From a virus, in the IMG/VR virus record IMGVR_UViG_3300023202_000102, positions 128,700 through 192,699 of that record: a stretch of 64,000 nucleotides of DNA; one strand, given 5' to 3'. Below, piece after piece: positions 9,567 to 53,888 of this stretch. Position 1 is the first letter of the stretch. Each line of letters opens with the position of its first letter. Both the position numbers and the translations under genes were made by a program. The notes beneath the pieces were generated by a model. The model searched no databases, had not been told where the DNA came from, and saw only the letters and a program-made list of their open reading frames with translations.

Positions 9567-10611
9567 TAGATTTGCACAAGTAGTTGAGGGTCTTTACAGG
9601 GGTGGGCGACCATCAGCTGAAGACCTTGCTGCGCTTCAAGATCTGTGGGGAATCAAGAAGGTTGTTAGCCTTGATGAAGAATCAGGCAAAGCTATTGAAC
9701 CTATTTGTAGAGATTTGGGATTGAAGCAAATCATCTGGGGTCTTGGTGATGGAACAGATCCTAAGGTCGCGGCCTTAAAGAGCAAGATAGTTCCGCAGCT
9801 CCTTATGGGTGGACCCACTTATGTTCACTGCTTTCATGGTAAGGACCGAACTGGAATGTGTATAGCTATGTTCCGGATTAACAATGGCTGGCCATTAGAG
9901 AAGGCTTTAAAGGAAGCAGCTTCTTTTGGTATGGGAACTAATCTTGATAGTGATGTAAGAGATTCATATTACAATGCTGTAAAAGAATTTTCTAAAGATG
10001 CAGATGTATCAGATGCAGATATTGTCTCTCAAATGAGAGAAGAGAACTCTTTTGGTATAGCGAGTCCAGCTGTAAATAATCAGAACATACCAAATTCTGA
10101 TTGGTCTATGAACTTTAATGTACCACCACATGCAGACCCAGCAGTGGGCCCATTGGATAGGGTTCTTGCTTATTCTAGAGTTTTTTGTAAATGTGATTCG
10201 TCTAAGTTATTACTGCCAAATGTTAGGTGGTGGGAGACTCAGAAGCAAGCCGAAGCAAACCCCACTGATGAGAATGGTAGGGTTTTTTCTGCAGTATTAG
10301 ATTCATCTACTAAGCTGGAGCGTTTCGATGGAAGGGTCACAGACTCACTGAGGGCTCATGCTTTGACCAAGGATATTGACGTGGCAGCATTTCGAGATGG
10401 TTCTTATTTAGTGGTGTATCCAGGCATCCTAGTAAGCATCCAGGAAGAGGATGACTCTAACGATAACGTTGGAGTAGAGGTTGGAATGCATAACAACTCG
10501 GTAGACTCTCCCTTGGCAGTTCCTGTAAGTGGTTCGGGGGTGGGGTCAGCAATACCGGCAGGCGCGGCAGCTCCAGTAACTTTGCCTTTTACTGGTCCGG
10601 GACAAGTTTAA
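9559..10611 (+). CDS. Protein-tyrosine/dual-specificity phosphatase-like protein
   Basis: The start at ATG 9559 is chosen because AAGGAGG ends three bases upstream; an in-frame ATG at 9556 and a TTG at 9541 are less likely. The 350-residue protein has a cysteine-phosphatase domain in residues 1-140. The signature loop is HCFHGKDRTG, with Cys91 and Arg97 in CX5R spacing, preceded by the strand VVSLDEE and the LYRGGRP segment typical of dual-specificity phosphatases. The C-terminal 200 residues are unrelated to the catalytic fold and end in a Gly/Ala/Pro-rich tail. Phosphatases removing phosphate from Tyr/Ser/Thr or from nucleotides share this loop, so the substrate is unknown. Its place among head genes suggests a virion-associated or late-acting enzyme (inference). 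Confidence 0.85.
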   Translation: MPDRFAQVVEGLYRGGRPSAEDLAALQDLWGIKKVVSLDEESGKAIEPICRDLGLKQIIWGLGDGTDPKVAALKSKIVPQLLMGGPTYVHCFHGKDRTGMCIAMFRINNGWPLEKALKEAASFGMGTNLDSDVRDSYYNAVKEFSKDADVSDADIVSQMREENSFGIASPAVNNQNIPNSDWSMNFNVPPHADPAVGPLDRVLAYSRVFCKCDSSKLLLPNVRWWETQKQAEANPTDENGRVFSAVLDSSTKLERFDGRVTDSLRAHALTKDIDVAAFRDGSYLVVYPGILVSIQEEDDSNDNVGVEVGMHNNSVDSPLAVPVSGSGVGSAIPAGAAAPVTLPFTGPGQV

Positions 10612-42413: not shown

Positions 42414-42479
42414 ATGAAGGCTTTAGTTTTATCAAGTGGTCAAGTTGGGATTTGCAAAATTACTTGGAGGCATATATGA
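42414..42479 (+). pseudogene. Degenerate copy of the patatin gene start, or leader peptide
   Basis: A 21-codon frame with GTGAGG upstream reads MKALVLSSGQVGICKITWRHI and stops at TGA 42477-42479, overlapping the patatin ATG at 42476. Its first nine residues match the start of the patatin gene (MKALVLSGG), and its QVGI matches the patatin QVGV if the six residues GCRGAF are missing. The two DNA copies differ at about 9 of the first 27 bases, mostly at third codon positions. It is either a relic of a tandem duplication or a translated leader coupled to the next gene. Confidence 0.55.
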
Positions 42480-43450
42480 AAGCGCTGGTGTTGTCAGGAG
42501 GAGGTTGTCGTGGCGCTTTTCAAGTTGGTGTTTTGAAAAAAATGCTAAAAGAAAACCCTGAGCTGGATTATGACATCTATTCTGGTATTTCTGTTGGAGC
42601 ATTGAATACATCAATGCTTGCAAGTGGTCCTCTTAAAGAAACCTTACCAGCTCTTGAGTCTATTTGGACTCAAGACATTAAAGGCAATCGTTCTGTGTGG
42701 AAGCACAAGATGATGAAAGCTATAGGTATGTGTTTGGTATCTCTTGTTACCAGCATATGTATGGGGTTTGTGTCGTTTATTGTGGGGTGGCCGCAATGGC
42801 TAACGCTTGTTTTTGGAGGAGCCTCTGTGGCTTTATTTGGTGTCCTTGCGGTGTTTCCATTTGTTAAGTTTTTACCAAATAACAAATCTTTCTATGACAC
42901 CACGCCTCTTAGAGAGATAATAAAGAAAAGACTTAACCTTGAGAATCTTAAGAATTCTGGAAAGAGACTTCGGATTGGCGCTGTATCTTACAATTCAGGA
43001 AAGTATAGGTCTGTCAATGAAAAATCTGACAGTATTATTAGTTGGATTATGGCCTCTTCTGCCTTTCCAATTTTCTTTCCAATGGAAGATATTGATGGAG
43101 AGCTTTGGCTTGATGGAGGTGTAACTGAAACAGCACCACTAAAAGATGCTCTTGAAATGGGCGCGACTGATATTGATGTCATTCTTACCGGGCCACTCTG
43201 TGTAGCTGAAGATGACGACGATAGAGGAACTGTTATTGATCAGATGTTTAGAGCTATCGATTTGATGAGCACAGAAATTATGGCTAATGATGTGATTCAT
43301 GACAGCTCTTTACATGATAAAGGGATTAAGATTCGTATCATTGCTCCAAAGAAGCATTTTTCAGTTAACCCTCTTAGCTTCAAACCAGATAAAATAAGGG
43401 AGATGATGGAGGCAGAATTCGAATCTATCGAAGATGCCCACAATCATTAA
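42476..43450 (+). CDS. Patatin-like phospholipase with membrane insert
   Basis: The start at ATG 42476 has GGAGG at 42466-42470. The 324-residue protein has the patatin signatures: an oxyanion loop SGGGCRGAF (residues 7-15), the nucleophile motif GISVGA with Ser39, and the catalytic Asp213 in DGG. It should hydrolyse acyl esters of lipids at membranes. Two hydrophobic segments at about residues 83-102 and 107-131 are inserted between the Ser and Asp parts and would anchor it in the membrane; this is not typical of small bacterial patatins. It lies after the virion genes and 20 bases before a cysteine desulfurase-like gene. Possible roles include lysis aid, membrane remodelling or interference with other phages. 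Confidence 0.9.
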   Translation: MKALVLSGGGCRGAFQVGVLKKMLKENPELDYDIYSGISVGALNTSMLASGPLKETLPALESIWTQDIKGNRSVWKHKMMKAIGMCLVSLVTSICMGFVSFIVGWPQWLTLVFGGASVALFGVLAVFPFVKFLPNNKSFYDTTPLREIIKKRLNLENLKNSGKRLRIGAVSYNSGKYRSVNEKSDSIISWIMASSAFPIFFPMEDIDGELWLDGGVTETAPLKDALEMGATDIDVILTGPLCVAEDDDDRGTVIDQMFRAIDLMSTEIMANDVIHDSSLHDKGIKIRIIAPKKHFSVNPLSFKPDKIREMMEAEFESIEDAHNH

Positions 43451-43470: not shown

Positions 43471-44538
43471 ATGCCTGAGTTATTTCTAGACGCTAACGCA
43501 CACCTTCCAATGAATCCAAAAGCTGTTAAGGCTTTTGTTGACTTTAACCAGTCTCTTGCAGGCCATGGTCACGCCATGGCCTCATCTGCTCCTGGGCGTA
43601 AAGCTGCAGGAGCTATTGAAGAGGCACGTAAGAAAATTGCCCAATTGATTGGTGCGGAAAAGCCAGATCAGATTGTGTTCACGTCATCTTGTACACAGGC
43701 ATGTGAGTGGGGTCTAAACCTTTTGAAACAACAGGGTTTCAATAAGGTGTACCGTTCTCAAATCGAGCACAAAGCAGTATCTGAAAAAGCTAAGGAACTA
43801 TTTCCAAACAGTGAAGAGTTGTATCCGTCAAAGAACGGGCTAGTGGCATGTGGGTTTAATCCAGAACCAAGCGCGGCATTTGTGTGTATGCATGTCCAGA
43901 ATGAGATAGGAACTATTCAGAAGATTGATACTATAAAAGTACCATTCTTTTGCGACATGTCCCAATCACTTGGTAAGACCAAAGTAAATGTATCATCAAT
44001 GCCAAATTTGAAGGTGGCTGTATTTGGTGCTCATAAATTCGGCGGACCAGTTGGTGTGGGTTTCATGTATGTCAAAGACACATCTTGGTGGAAAGCGTTT
44101 GGTTCAGGTTCTAGATATTACATGGATCGTCCGGGAACGCCAGATGCAGGTATGATTGTGGCCACCGCTATAGCATTGGAAGAGGCTATCAAGAGCTTTC
44201 CTGAGAGGTATGGGAATGCTGTTCTTTTTCAAGACATTATTGAGGCTAAGATAGAGTCTAAAGGCCTTTCAATAATTGGGAAGGATAGGATACCCTTTAC
44301 TACTTTCTTTAAGGTAGGAGGCAACAGAGGGCCGTATTTGATGGCTCAGATGGAAACTGAGGGTATGTACATTGGTCTTGGCTCTGCTTGTGGCTCTGTT
44401 ACCGCTACATCCTCTGCCTTGATGACCGCAATGGGTCATGGAGGCTCAGCGCAAGATTATGTCAGGATTTCAACCTGGGGAGAATACGGCGTTAACGAAG
44501 CAAAAACGGTGGCTAGAGCTATAGCAAAATACTGCTGA
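43471..44538 (+). CDS. Cysteine desulfurase-like (class V aminotransferase) enzyme
   Basis: This 355-residue protein matches the NifS/IscS family. It begins FLDANAHLPMNPKAV (as LDNNATTxxxPxV), has His100 in EHKAV, VQNEIGTIQ, Asp162 and Gln165 in CDMSQSLGK, the PLP lysine Lys189 in GAHKFGGPVGVGFMYV, and the catalytic Cys307 in GSACGS. It is shorter than IscS (about 400) but keeps all key residues, so it is probably active. It should take sulfur from cysteine and pass it on as persulfide. Partners for iron-sulfur, tRNA or DNA sulfuration are not in this window. The ribosome site is weak; it may be co-transcribed with the patatin gene. Confidence 0.88.
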   Translation: MPELFLDANAHLPMNPKAVKAFVDFNQSLAGHGHAMASSAPGRKAAGAIEEARKKIAQLIGAEKPDQIVFTSSCTQACEWGLNLLKQQGFNKVYRSQIEHKAVSEKAKELFPNSEELYPSKNGLVACGFNPEPSAAFVCMHVQNEIGTIQKIDTIKVPFFCDMSQSLGKTKVNVSSMPNLKVAVFGAHKFGGPVGVGFMYVKDTSWWKAFGSGSRYYMDRPGTPDAGMIVATAIALEEAIKSFPERYGNAVLFQDIIEAKIESKGLSIIGKDRIPFTTFFKVGGNRGPYLMAQMETEGMYIGLGSACGSVTATSSALMTAMGHGGSAQDYVRISTWGEYGVNEAKTVARAIAKYC

Positions 44539-45944: not shown

Positions 45945-46280
45945 ATGGGTGCTGGAACTTACATATTTGCTAACACCGGACAATTGGTTCGACTCGTTGT
46001 TCAAACTCTTGATGGATATGGAAATCGAGTGGACGGATACGTTCCTGTGGTTCAAAATTTCATCTACCCTGACTTGGGTGTAGCTTTGGGGTACCCAGTT
46101 AACATGGTGCGCCTAGAGACAGGACTGTATGCTCACGGTATTCTTATGCCAGAAGGCGCAGATGCCCTAGGCACTTACATAGCAAATGTGTACTGGGAAG
46201 AGAATGGTAACCCGAAGTGGGAGGCTTTCGCTATCTCCCTCTCCAGACCATTTGGTAATACAGCAGTGTCACCTATTTAA
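45945..46280 (+). CDS. Putative virion adaptor with Ig-like domain
   Basis: A 111-residue beta-rich protein with the pattern GQLVRLVVQTLDGYGNRVDGYVPVV... GTYIANVYWEE. Its strand order and motifs resemble the first ~110 residues of the gene at 48262 (GDTVALRARFTGPDG ... PPIGTWRDVWRG), so both probably carry the same Ig-like virion domain. The minus-strand cassette lies between them. No further family assignment. Confidence 0.65.
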   Translation: MGAGTYIFANTGQLVRLVVQTLDGYGNRVDGYVPVVQNFIYPDLGVALGYPVNMVRLETGLYAHGILMPEGADALGTYIANVYWEENGNPKWEAFAISLSRPFGNTAVSPI

Positions 46281-46642
46281 CGACACTCAGACTCAATCTG
46301 CTCACATGAAGTAATGTGAGCTTGACACTGTAGCCCTTGGTGAACGCCTTGGGCTACAAATGCTTCACAGACCATTTCACAGGTCTCACCACAATTACCA
46401 ATGCTCTCACCCTCATTTTTGATACAAATAGTTGGGTCTGGACAGTCTTTATCTGTAGAGCATTCATCTACCCATTCAAGTGGCTTACCTTCCTGGCATC
46501 CTAACTCTTCAAGATTAGAACATGCATTGGTACAGTCTGCTGCATCGTCTTTCTCTACAACCCCTGGAGATGAGGGTTCGTTACACATAGGGGCCATCAA
46601 GCAAAGTGATAGTCCCATTACAAAAAGTCTTCTCTTAATCAT
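46277..46642 (-). CDS. Cys-rich exported protein (possible lipoprotein)
   Basis: This 121-residue minus-strand protein has a signal peptide (MIKRRLFVMGLSLCLMAPMC); the lipobox is non-canonical (APMC), so it may be secreted or lipid-anchored. The mature part has many Cys residues in small disulfide-like motifs (CTNACSNLEELGC, C..DKDCPDPTIC, CGETCEMVC). This style is common in Myxococcota and related bacteria. Its ATG overlaps the stop of the peptidase gene (ATGA at 46639-46642), so the two are made together. It could act with, or control, the peptidase. Confidence 0.75.
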   Translation of the reverse strand: MIKRRLFVMGLSLCLMAPMCNEPSSPGVVEKDDAADCTNACSNLEELGCQEGKPLEWVDECSTDKDCPDPTICIKNEGESIGNCGETCEMVCEAFVAQGVHQGLQCQAHITSCEQIESECR

Positions 46643-47451
46643 TTTTCAGTCCACGCTTCCGAGCCATCTACTATGACCCAAAGATCTCTAGTGCTAGGGT
46701 GTGTAAACACCTCTGGTTTGACATAAGCAAAACCATCATCTCCCCATTGAGTGCCCCAAGAGTTCTCGACTATGAAGATTCCATCTACATAACCTACTAC
46801 AACCATTGCATGGCCACCTTTAGGTTTATTCTCGACTCCAATAGTCTTTCCACCTCTGTATCCAAACCACTGATCACCAACCTGGGTACCAAAGATAATT
46901 GGATTGCCAGCTTTCAAGTTGAAGATCATATCTTCAAGAAGTTCCTTACCTTGAGACTTGATCTTAAAGTGTGATGTGATTCGATTTAGCCTGGATTCAC
47001 GAGCAGCCAATAAGGTTGGCTTCTTGGTAACATCTCTTACTTTGAATGGATGAAGCTCATCTCGACAAACACCGATGTCACGAAGAACATCACAAGCCAA
47101 TGATATGTAGGTTCCTTCATCCTTTTTAACTTGAGATGGGGTCATTCTATCACGAGCATTGTAATATAGGTTAAGTACAGATAGGTCTGTGTGTTTTTCA
47201 TGACCATGCTTCATGATGCGTTTGATTTCAAGTGCTTTGATAGTGCTCTGACCAACACAAGATCCTGTTGCACCTTGGTCGTGACGGGGGGAGGTGTAAG
47301 GGCGAAGGTCTACATCATCTCCGCTTTGGTACTGGTTGTTAGATTTTGACAAGGATAGCTTAGATCTATCGAACTTGTAGTATTTTTTATTGGCAGGATC
47401 TGGTTGCCATCCGCCTAGCTTAAACTTCTTTCTTCGAAATAATTTGAACAC
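46639..47451 (-). CDS. Papain-like (C1A) cysteine peptidase
   Basis: The start is taken as GTG 47451, because AGGAG lies at the right distance in the end of the upstream gene; a longer frame from 47481 overlaps that gene. The 270-residue protein has the papain triad in order: Cys65 in DQGATGSCVGQS, His214 in GGHAMVVVGY and Asn230 in VENSWGTQWGDDGF. Gln58 in HDQG would be the oxyanion residue. No propeptide or signal peptide is visible. It lies between a homing endonuclease and a Cys-rich exported protein on the minus strand. The target is unknown; a role in the host, the virion or against competitors is open. Confidence 0.9.
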   Translation of the reverse strand: MFKLFRRKKFKLGGWQPDPANKKYYKFDRSKLSLSKSNNQYQSGDDVDLRPYTSPRHDQGATGSCVGQSTIKALEIKRIMKHGHEKHTDLSVLNLYYNARDRMTPSQVKKDEGTYISLACDVLRDIGVCRDELHPFKVRDVTKKPTLLAARESRLNRITSHFKIKSQGKELLEDMIFNLKAGNPIIFGTQVGDQWFGYRGGKTIGVENKPKGGHAMVVVGYVDGIFIVENSWGTQWGDDGFAYVKPEVFTHPSTRDLWVIVDGSEAWTEK

Positions 47452-47452
47452 T

Positions 47453-48226
47453 TTAACTCCTAAATCTCTTTGCAATTTCAAATTTTCTATCTAAATAATC
47501 TTCACCATCATCATACAGCCATGAGAAAATCTTTCTTGCATTGCCATTACCACAATATTGTATTATGAAAATTCCAGATGATAGACTAACTTTTACTGGG
47601 TTAACACCGCTGTATTTTACCAAAAAATCCCTGTACGAGAGAAGGAAACTTTCTGTTCCACGAACAGAAATTGCCGCTTGTGATTTTTTGTTTATTGATA
47701 CTCCTCCATCTCCATCAAAATATCCTCTCATGAAATGTTTTACCAGATCGGGATCTACGTTTGGGAATGTGTACTTCTTTGTTTTTCTTGGCGTGATGTT
47801 AAACCTTTCAAGATCCTTGGCCATTTTTCTTGATACAATATCGATAGAAGAGTAGTTTTCATACTTCTGCACCGGCTCTTGTGCTTTGCAAAAATTTTTG
47901 AACTTTTCAATGTGTTCAACATCTCTGTTTGCTAATGAAAGGGATACTATTTTTGTATTTTTGTTTTTCTCTTTGATACATCCGTCAGCTGCTATAAACC
48001 CAGCCCAATAGTAGGACTGCGGAGAGTCTCTTGAAAATACCAAATCATCATGATTGTATTTTGTTTTGTACTTGATTTCTATATCGTACCGGTTCATTAA
48101 ACCTCTTAATGACTTGGTATCAAAACCAGTGGCTCTAGAAACTCCCTGAATGCTACCGTTTATCTGGTATAGATCTAGGAACTCTTCTTTGGTAAGTACT
48201 TTATACAGCGGCGTTCCTTTTGGCAT
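47453..48226 (-). CDS. LAGLIDADG homing endonuclease with N-terminal HTH
   Basis: About 257 residues from ATG 48226 (a TTG at 48238 is also in frame; no strong ribosome site). The N-terminal ~60 residues look like a helix-turn-helix (GSIQGVSRATGFDTKSLRGL). Two LAGLIDADG motifs follow, YYWAGFIAADGC and FMRGYFDGDGG, so it is a single-chain enzyme. It is homologous to the gene at 53073, with the same order and motifs. It is encoded divergently from the virion gene at 48262, only about 30 bases away, and its C-terminal codons hold the ribosome site of the peptidase gene. Confidence 0.9.
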   Translation of the reverse strand: MPKGTPLYKVLTKEEFLDLYQINGSIQGVSRATGFDTKSLRGLMNRYDIEIKYKTKYNHDDLVFSRDSPQSYYWAGFIAADGCIKEKNKNTKIVSLSLANRDVEHIEKFKNFCKAQEPVQKYENYSSIDIVSRKMAKDLERFNITPRKTKKYTFPNVDPDLVKHFMRGYFDGDGGVSINKKSQAAISVRGTESFLLSYRDFLVKYSGVNPVKVSLSSGIFIIQYCGNGNARKIFSWLYDDGEDYLDRKFEIAKRFRS

Positions 48227-48261
48227 ATCAATATTCAAGTATATTAGTATAGGGGATAATA

Positions 48262-49161
48262 ATGGCTATCGTTCCAAGATCGGAAATTGTACAACCAGGA
48301 GATACCGTTGCTCTTCGCGCACGGTTTACCGGACCTGACGGAATGGAAACTGATCTTGATGCGTTTCCAACGGTTACTGTAATTCAACCGGGAGGTGGTG
48401 TAGCTGTTGGGCCAACCTCAGCGGGTGTAGCAAGAATTGGTATTGGTCAATATCAATTTAATTATAGCATTGGCCTCTACCCTCCTATTGGAACATGGAG
48501 AGATGTTTGGAGAGGTGTCTTGAGTGGGTATGAGGTTATTGGTGAATTTACATTCACAACTCATACTACGCAGATGCCTGCGATTAATACTGACGGATAT
48601 AAAAAGCTTGGAGACGACCCAGGATTCAACTTTTCTCAGACTGCCATCTGCAACATCAATAACTTACTGAAGTCTTTGCGTGCTCGTTTAAAGAGCCGTG
48701 GAAAGTCTAAGACTACCGATCAGTTCGGAAATGTTATCTACAAAGATTGTGATGTTTATACGGTGGATGAGCTGGTGGCATTTCTCTGCCAGGCCCTCTC
48801 AATGTTCAATGAAATTCCTCACTTCACATTCTTTGTGTGGGAGGATACTCCTATTATTGAACAATTCCATGACGTACTGGTTCAGGGTGGGCTTTATCTT
48901 GCTCTTGCTGCGCAGGCTCTTATTGAGCGTGGTCGTGAATTTACTGTAAATGACAATGGTATCGGATTTACTCCACCAACCATTTCTGAGCTTTTGAACT
49001 CTCAGTACCAGAAGGAAATGGATTCCTGGTATGAAAAGGTTAAGCTTATCAAGCACAACATGAAGCCTTCGCCGCTAGGCCTTGGAACCTTGAGCTTTGT
49101 GGGTGGAGCAAGCCCTCAGGTGCGCCGTTTGCGCCATTTGAGGCAGCGCCAGATCTTCTAA
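48262..49161 (+). CDS. Virion structural protein with Ig-like N-terminus
   Basis: A 299-residue protein whose first ~110 residues form an Ig-like beta domain related to the gene at 45945. The rest is helical with a Tyr/Phe-rich middle (NEIPHFTFFVWEDTPIIEQF) and ends in a basic Arg-rich stretch. This two-part layout is seen in neck or baseplate-associated proteins of large phages. It has AGGGG upstream of ATG. An exact family is not assigned. Confidence 0.7.
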   Translation: MAIVPRSEIVQPGDTVALRARFTGPDGMETDLDAFPTVTVIQPGGGVAVGPTSAGVARIGIGQYQFNYSIGLYPPIGTWRDVWRGVLSGYEVIGEFTFTTHTTQMPAINTDGYKKLGDDPGFNFSQTAICNINNLLKSLRARLKSRGKSKTTDQFGNVIYKDCDVYTVDELVAFLCQALSMFNEIPHFTFFVWEDTPIIEQFHDVLVQGGLYLALAAQALIERGREFTVNDNGIGFTPPTISELLNSQYQKEMDSWYEKVKLIKHNMKPSPLGLGTLSFVGGASPQVRRLRHLRQRQIF

Positions 49162-50841: not shown

Positions 50842-51414
50842 ATGCCTGAGGAAATTGTAACCAAAGGAATTCCACATAAGAAACTAGCTCCTATCTTGGA
50901 GAGAGTTCGTAAAGATGTGATTGCAAGTGATACTTTCAAAGAGATGGCTGAGAAGTATGACCTATATGAAGAAGAGTATGATTTGATTCCGTTAGCATTT
51001 GCTGAGCTTCCGGTTTCTGCCCGTACTGATCATGGGTGTATTTACGTTAACATTGAATTGCTTGAGAATTTTCTTAAGGATGGAAAGATAGATGAAGATG
51101 AGCTAAAGGAGATTGCTCACTATGTAGCTCATGAGAAAACTCATTTCGGCCAGCAGACTACTGGTAATAAGCCAACACCAGGAAGTACAGACGAGAATTA
51201 TTTAGATAACCCTGTGGAACAAGAGGGTTTCAAGAACCAGACGCAATACATTGCAGAAACTCAGGATGAGGAAGCAGCAGAAGAGTACATTGAAAAAGTA
51301 CTAGATCATCATGATGAATATCATGAAGACGATAAAGAGCGTGAGAGTCGTAAAAAGAAGCTGATTGATCTTGCCAGTGAAGTTAGACTACAGGTGTTTC
51401 TGAAGGGGTTTTAG
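50842..51414 (+). CDS. Putative zinc metalloprotease (HEXXH)
   Basis: A 190-residue protein with HEKTH (His97-Glu98...His101) inside a predicted helix (IAHYVAHEKTHFGQQ), the zincin active-site pattern. A possible third ligand is Glu126 or Glu128 in NPVEQEGF. The C-terminal third is an acidic, His/Glu/Lys-rich helix. HEXXH alone is short and can arise by chance, but the helical context and a downstream acidic residue support it. It could be a virion or processing peptidase. The stop is TAG. Confidence 0.7.
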   Translation: MPEEIVTKGIPHKKLAPILERVRKDVIASDTFKEMAEKYDLYEEEYDLIPLAFAELPVSARTDHGCIYVNIELLENFLKDGKIDEDELKEIAHYVAHEKTHFGQQTTGNKPTPGSTDENYLDNPVEQEGFKNQTQYIAETQDEEAAEEYIEKVLDHHDEYHEDDKERESRKKKLIDLASEVRLQVFLKGF

Positions 51415-53072: not shown

Positions 53073-53888
53073 ATGACTGGTAGATTTGAAGATATGCATG
53101 GAATAACAAAGAGAGACTTACAGATTAAGTATGAAAAGTTTGGATCATTGAGAGGTGTAGCAAAAGAATACGGTACTGATCATAATGTTATTCGCGGTAT
53201 GATGGGTCGTTTTGGTTTGAATTACAAAGTAATAAATTATAAATCACTACCTGTTAATCATGATTTTTTCTCAGAGCATACCTATCAGTCATGTTATTGG
53301 GCTGGTTTTTTGGCTGCAGATGGCTGCATACATAACAAATATGTAAAACTGTCTTTGTCTGAAAAAGATCTTAATCATTTAATGACTTTTAAAGAACATA
53401 TAAGCTCAGAACACAAATTAACAAAAACGGAAAGTAAGGGATCTGTTTGTTATTGTTTATCTGTTAGTTCTTCTAAAATGGTGAGTGATCTTAAAAAATT
53501 TGGAGTTGTTCCAAGAAAAACACAAACATTAGATTTTCCAAAGATACCTAGCGCTTTGGCTTCATATTTTTGTAGGGGATATTTTGATGGTGATGGATGT
53601 TGGGCCGTTCACAAACCATCCACTCGTCCAGGCAGAAAAGGTCAATTGGTATTTTCAACCAGAGGTACTGAAAAGTTTCTTGAAGGATTTAACAAATGTC
53701 TTGTAAATTACGCTGGATTACCAGAGAGGTGCCTTGACAAGTCATTGAAGGGATGGAGAACTTCTGTGCTTCAGTATAATGGTAATAACATTTGTAGAAA
53801 GATAGCCGATTGGCTTTACAAAGATATTGATAATTCTGATGTGTTTCTTGATAGGAAATATCAGATTGTATATGGTGATAGAGTATAA
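53073..53888 (+). CDS. LAGLIDADG homing endonuclease with N-terminal HTH
   Basis: A 271-residue free-standing endonuclease with an HTH-like N-terminus (GSLRGVAKEYGTDHNVIRGM) and two LAGLIDADG motifs, CYWAGFLAADGC and YFCRGYFDGDGC. It is clearly related to the minus-strand gene at 47453-48226 but well diverged and in opposite orientation. It sits between two virion genes without interrupting either. The DNA is more AT-rich than its neighbours, a sign of recent arrival. Confidence 0.92.
   Translation: MTGRFEDMHGITKRDLQIKYEKFGSLRGVAKEYGTDHNVIRGMMGRFGLNYKVINYKSLPVNHDFFSEHTYQSCYWAGFLAADGCIHNKYVKLSLSEKDLNHLMTFKEHISSEHKLTKTESKGSVCYCLSVSSSKMVSDLKKFGVVPRKTQTLDFPKIPSALASYFCRGYFDGDGCWAVHKPSTRPGRKGQLVFSTRGTEKFLEGFNKCLVNYAGLPERCLDKSLKGWRTSVLQYNGNNICRKIADWLYKDIDNSDVFLDRKYQIVYGDRV

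Follow-up and report, generated by a model that had tools for sequence, protein, structure and literature searches.

The minus strand of a 193,802-bp IMG/VR virus carries three neighbouring genes, for a homing endonuclease (HEG), a papain-like peptidase (PEP) and a Cys-rich protein (CYS), which raises the question of whether they travel together as one mobile unit and what the peptidase and its neighbour might do for the phage. The window analysed is the 64,000-nucleotide stretch corresponding to bases 128700-192699 of that record. A first-pass annotation had described the three genes as running against their neighbours, and this was borne out, coordinates included; both flanking genes, g4595 and g4826, are virion-type and lie on the plus strand. 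The features discussed below are as follows.

45945..46280, plus strand: g4595, left flanking gene, 111 aa, kept in relatives (comparison with relatives)
46277..46642, minus strand: CYS, 121 aa with 14 Cys, predicted Cys-rich lipoprotein (sequence, homologue alignment, predicted structure)
46639..46642, minus strand: ATGA start/stop overlap of PEP and CYS (sequence)
46639..47451, minus strand: PEP, 270 aa from GTG 47451, predicted C1A (papain) cysteine peptidase of the xylellain type (Pfam, alignment, fold search)
47457..47461, minus strand: AGGAG, putative ribosome-binding site of PEP within the 3' end of HEG (sequence)
47453..48226, minus strand: HEG, predicted free-standing LAGLIDADG homing endonuclease (PHROG 4645), likeliest start ATG 48226, TTG 48238 possible (profiles, tree, comparison with L002)
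48227..48261, plus strand: conserved leader of g4826 and right edge of the HEG insertion (comparison with L002)
48262..49161, plus strand: g4826, 299 aa, gene on the right flank, conserved across >100 IMG/VR contigs (IMG/VR search)

All three minus strand reading frames are judged genuine rather than chance because the homologues of each share conserved active sites or cysteines. Their supposed mutual overlap holds for PEP and CYS, which share the ATGA, but HEG and PEP merely abut, the most likely PEP start (GTG 47451) lying one base past the HEG stop. The ribosome site of the peptidase does sit inside the end of the endonuclease gene, and the end of g4595 overlaps that of CYS by 4 nt. ATG 48226 is the most likely HEG start because the four preceding codons, from TTG 48238 onward, also occur in the relative L002, which has no HEG and in which the bases beyond the HEG ATG (ATCAATATTCAAGTATATTAG...) likewise precede g4826. 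Over its 36 nt the g4826 leader is 92% identical to that of HEG-less L002, compared with 63–83% in 100-nt bins of g4826. Scanning the region for sigma-70 promoters and terminators gave a result near that of shuffled sequence and was uninformative. Other genes adjoining the virion-region genes of the window encode a patatin phospholipase (42452-43450) and a class-V, cysteine desulfurase-like aminotransferase (43471-44538) that is kept in many relatives; a conserved protein nearby (50842-51414) has an HEKTH (HExxH) motif and no Pfam match, and is possibly a metallopeptidase.

PEP matches Pfam Peptidase_C1 (PF00112; E=8e-16, 59.2 bits where the cut-off is 20.7), and its best fold match is xylellain (3ois; fold E=5e-20, TM 0.77, sequence E=2e-20); its AlphaFold2 model has a pLDDT of 87. 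Judged from its sequence and fold it is a C1A papain-family peptidase of the xylellain type, with predicted proteolytic activity. The full Cys/His/Asn triad first noted in the window protein extends to its homologues, C65, H214 and N230 being invariant in 19 sequences together with Q59. The accompanying claim that it lacks a propeptide stands for the I29 type, but the protein does have an N-terminal extension of ~46 aa, which includes the region of a conserved G-[WFY] motif. PEP has no signal peptide, and a hydrophobic leader is absent in nearly all homologues. Large in-frame inteins or intein-like inserts interrupt PEP in three relatives, at two sites. In L002 (4764-5795) the insert is a 344-aa intein with a LAGLIDADG domain (Pfam Intein_splicing 4e-10), which follows GGHAMC two residues beyond the catalytic His, while the intein-like inserts of L110 and L119, with LAGLIDADG matches, lie directly after the catalytic NSWG motif; in neither of the latter was the Pfam splicing domain called, and the LAGLIDADG match of L119 falls just below cut-off. 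As the active site is invariant and inteins sit in it, PEP appears to be kept active.

In CYS a hydrophobic leader, found in all 23 homologues, ends at Cys20, which is itself invariant (23/23), as are five further cysteines (C37, C49, C92, C106 and C113). Residue -1 of the lipobox is G, A or S in about half of the homologues and M, T, H, N or D in the others, with M in the window. The predicted fold is confident (pLDDT 88) and has no match in the PDB (best E=0.39); a viral library returned only two uncultured Caudovirales proteins, one of them named Lipoprotein (E~2e-3), and no family was found in Pfam, PHROGs, NCBIfam or PADLOC. Animal-toxin knottins were the best Pfam matches, at chance level (E>0.02), and were ignored as relatives. 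The window protein is a long form with an extra Cys-rich insert missing from the short form, which is seen in L097 and others, and in many members the acylation Cys is followed by a Pro-rich linker. CYS is probably an envelope lipoprotein, with export and lipidation predicted, because of the invariant Cys at the lipobox position, the five other invariant cysteines and a confident fold outside the PDB. It had been read as an exported Cys-rich protein translated from the ATGA overlap, which agrees with the leader in every homologue; predicted lipoprotein is the better term.

The gene that accompanies PEP is CYS. Counting identical loci once, CYS lies near PEP, within about 2 kb, in 24 of 24 independent loci of the PEP clade: downstream in 17, upstream in five and divergent in two. 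A GIY-YIG endonuclease separates the two in L090/L114, and in L103 they are ~2 kb apart. Since three arrangements occur, the link is not mere read-through of one ancestral operon. Among 48 related phage records PEP is present in seven, CYS in eight and both in seven (7/7 versus 1/41; Fisher p=1.1e-7), an eighth PEP-profile match (L093) being a distant outgroup that was left out of the PEP count. When CYS was searched on its own in a subgroup, PEP was present at 10/10 loci. The outgroup C1 peptidases (L093, FLC9, LR756511 and L123) are without CYS; INPHARED held no close relatives of g4826 or CYS, its only C1 peptidases being the remote FLC9 and LR756511. Pairwise identities of PEP and CYS correlate (rho 0.49, 0/2000 permutations), as co-inheritance alone would predict. 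The pair also occurs away from the g4595|g4826 junction, as in L088/L100 (~256 kb from g4826), in L090, L091 and L092, where CYS is near PEP in each, and in L097, a MAG contig with phage-like genes in which CYS is again nearby. In L114-L116 and L118 it lies beside a gene resembling IMP dehydrogenase, and a wider scan found further PEP loci in other large phages. Across the PEP-CYS loci, no further neighbour family is widely shared. Directly behind PEP in L114 (4764-5642), L116 (4785-5540) and L118 (4692-5450) lies a protein family with no Pfam match, possibly a third module member in that clade. The sequences are mostly uncultivated contigs, some of them partial, with rough gene calls in GC-rich loci. 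We regard the pairing as very probably real, and comparison across loci shows a two-gene module, PEP-CYS, to be the unit that holds together. The early suggestion that the enzyme is paired with a dedicated Cys-rich exported partner is in this respect upheld. Acquisition of xylellain-type C1A peptidases by Caudoviricetes, on independent occasions, has already been reported (PMC10380794), and what appears new here is the pairing and the partner family; an earlier report of the pair was not found in the open-access literature, which is weak evidence given a limited search.

An autonomous PEP-CYS module with an inhibitor or immunity role is the best overall explanation, although we put it somewhat short of an even chance. 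CYS would be the cognate, envelope-anchored partner of a PEP that is active, or would be harmful, in the envelope compartment, which PEP would reach on release at lysis or with an incoming particle; there the lipid-anchored CYS would neutralise it and protect the infected cell. Three observations favour this mechanism: the enzyme is leaderless while its partner is placed in the envelope; CYS occurs once alone and PEP of the clade never; and gene order and orientation are free. Precedents exist, as periplasmic immunity proteins neutralise leaderless T6SS effectors, and T4 Sp is thought to protect the infected cell against the tail lysozyme. Against it, the absence of an export signal in PEP also sets the enzyme apart from the predicted compartment of CYS, and the asymmetry depends on a single CYS without PEP on one partial contig (L003, 42.7 kb). 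The lipobox -1 residue is non-consensus in several CYS, and lipidation is a prediction. As CYS has no PDB fold match, the inhibitor function also draws no support from structure. The annotation of the jumbo phage XacN1 includes a C1 peptidase that does not appear by name among its detected virion enzymes (PMC5852040), though it may be of the CYS-less type. Taken on its own, direct interaction and inhibition by CYS is a tentative proposal that we consider distinctly less than evenly probable. Its fullest form, in which CYS, as a dedicated, disulfide-rich lipoprotein of new fold, inhibits an envelope-active PEP in infected cells and this protease-immunity pair of large phages moves as a unit between genome positions and is repeatedly targeted by inteins and HEGs, is somewhat unlikely as a whole.

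The leaderless enzyme also recalls holin-released endolysins, and PEP-CYS might instead disrupt the envelope at lysis. CYS would then be a lipoprotein of the outer membrane, resembling an o-spanin or serving as a docking site, and would recruit or activate PEP for the digestion of envelope proteins. The small size of the lipoprotein, the Pro-rich linker of many members and the start/stop overlap with its partner would suit such a part. However, no recognisable holin, endolysin or spanin gene was found among the neighbours examined, ten of which were scanned and gave no Pfam family, the gene order is not conserved, and L003 has its CYS with no PEP; we consider a lysis module unlikely. A further alternative treats the pair as a moron, in which CYS is an exclusion lipoprotein of the Ltp/Llp type and PEP, in a role of its own, cleaves a protein of the host or of an incoming phage, the two being jointly regulated and not bound to each other. 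PEP-CYS opposes both neighbour genes in at least seven loci (L100-L102, L113, L115, L119 and L121; ORF-based, and less certain in GC-rich loci), which is typical of autonomous expression units, and phage exclusion lipoproteins are known (PMC3952083, PMC9586334). Yet total linkage with shuffled order exceeds that of most moron pairs, and CYS, with no Pfam or PHROG family and no PDB fold match, resembles no known exclusion lipoprotein in sequence or fold. This moron reading is also unlikely.

The place of HEG was addressed with g4826 as anchor gene, its search of IMG/VR yielding 18, then 80 loci on contigs of up to ~480 kb. The window HEG matches the PHROG 4645 endonuclease (E=1.3e-48) and Pfam LAGLIDADG_3 (4e-11) and has both LAGLIDADG motifs with their acidic residues (AGFIAADG and RGYFDGDGG). 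By family profile, motifs and the HEG-free alleles of relatives, such as L002 with its conserved g4826 leader intact at the same site, it is a LAGLIDADG homing endonuclease, for which site-specific cleavage and homing are predicted activities. A clean empty site, as had been anticipated, is common: 40 of 64 measurable junctions are shorter than 150 bp, empty or nearly so. HEG stands alone at the junction in nine relatives (L014, L015, L019, L028, L040, L048, L063, L068 and L082), always on the minus strand immediately 5' of g4826. PEP-CYS is found there without HEG in L002 and L008, and CYS without PEP in L003, where inspection by eye saw no PEP relic. The junction also takes a GIY-YIG-like ORF (L035) and HNH-like ORFs (L047 and L052), read by eye, as well as an esterase-like protein (L004/L013). 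Esterase-like (SASA) and GDSL-lipase domains have been inserted at the g4595 gene, or form a fusion with it, in L004 (6461-9964) and L008 (6212-8488), so that large plus strand cargo is admitted too. L008 further carries a degraded partial copy of the C-terminal part of g4826 (9944-10304) directly upstream of the intact gene, and lone g4826-like C-terminal ORFs occur elsewhere in L003, L004 and L005.

In a tree of 60 LAGLIDADG proteins the other junction HEGs and one further L028 sequence form one 100/100 clade, and the window HEG falls outside it, which marks it as an independent, separate arrival in a HEG hot spot at g4826. A further LAGLIDADG clade sits just behind g4826, on the plus strand, in about ten loci. 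HEG content is known to be unstable at fixed sites near virion genes (PMC10448857), which the g4826 hot spot fits. A second LAGLIDADG endonuclease of the window, HEG2 (53073-53888, plus strand), lies between two virion-region genes; its L004 orthologue is ~61% identical, and L003 retains a C-terminal remnant. The window HEG is free-standing and has inserted between the start of PEP and the leader of g4826, and comparison shows that PEP-CYS neither needs HEG nor usually occurs with it.

These observations bear on the proposal that cargo and mobile gene are linked, HEG cutting the empty junction and repair copying HEG, PEP and CYS together. Empty sites exist, and HEG reaches directly to the conserved leader of g4826. 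Wherever an empty junction was cut, the heterologous block would be co-converted in full, and HEG islands carrying cargo have been described (PMC10448857). But PEP-CYS is found without HEG in L002, L008, L088, L097 and others and is mostly without an adjoining homing endonuclease elsewhere, nine relatives have HEG alone, L003 has CYS alone, the window HEG is of a different lineage from other junction HEGs, and no second locus with a window-type HEG plus PEP-CYS was found. A HEG-borne cargo unit is thus very unlikely, and the three-gene cassette was rejected as the default unit, each component having been found apart, the outcome that the first-pass annotation had itself named as refuting the idea; of the first-pass reading the paired enzyme and the empty site survive and the three-gene unit does not. 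Co-conversion of PEP-CYS into an empty junction along with the window HEG is possible because repair copies whatever stands between homologous flanks. Least probable, and very unlikely, is that CYS is a substrate, folding aid or activator of PEP rather than its inhibitor: the lack of an I29 propeptide and obligate pairing with a Cys-rich partner would fit, but the two proteins have different predicted compartments and one CYS persists with no PEP.

C1A peptidases of tailed phages have been recorded before, as far as we found with neither partner nor function. A lipoprotein from a new family, linked strictly to the peptidase, offers a directly testable hypothesis of binding, inhibition and envelope protection, and marks both PEP and CYS for annotation in large phages. 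The junction is an example of homing endonucleases settling beside accessory genes that they do not own, and cautions that a HEG plus its neighbours need not be one mobile cassette.

Among known systems, the window HEG resembles the free-standing LAGLIDADG phage endonucleases of PHROG 4645 in family (E=1e-48) and in its insertion beside a virion-region gene. As in HEG islands (Barth et al. 2023, PMC10448857), different HEGs occupy one site in related phages. Unlike such islands, the window HEG adjoins an accessory pair that most relatives lack, and no island of >90% nucleotide identity common to the window and another phage was seen. T4 Sp is a small phage-encoded envelope protein that acts on an incoming-phage function. 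T5 Llp and TP-J34 Ltp (PMC9586334, PMC3952083) share this character, to which CYS may be likened, whereas no sequence or fold relation between CYS and these proteins was found and CYS is almost always beside a peptidase. PEP and CYS recall periplasmic effector-immunity pairs such as those of T6SS in their leaderless enzyme beside a signal-peptide partner, in their being neighbouring genes (24/24 loci) and in a possible orphan partner (L003); they differ in being phage-borne, with no delivery machinery identified, and the toxicity of PEP and its neutralisation by CYS are hypothetical. The closest likeness of PEP itself is with xylellain-type bacterial C1A peptidases (PDB 3ois; PF00112), with which it shares the full papain active site, short length and absence of an I29 propeptide, and from which the phage clade is set apart by strict pairing with a Cys-rich predicted lipoprotein and, in some members, by inteins that adjoin the catalytic His or closely follow the motif of the catalytic Asn.
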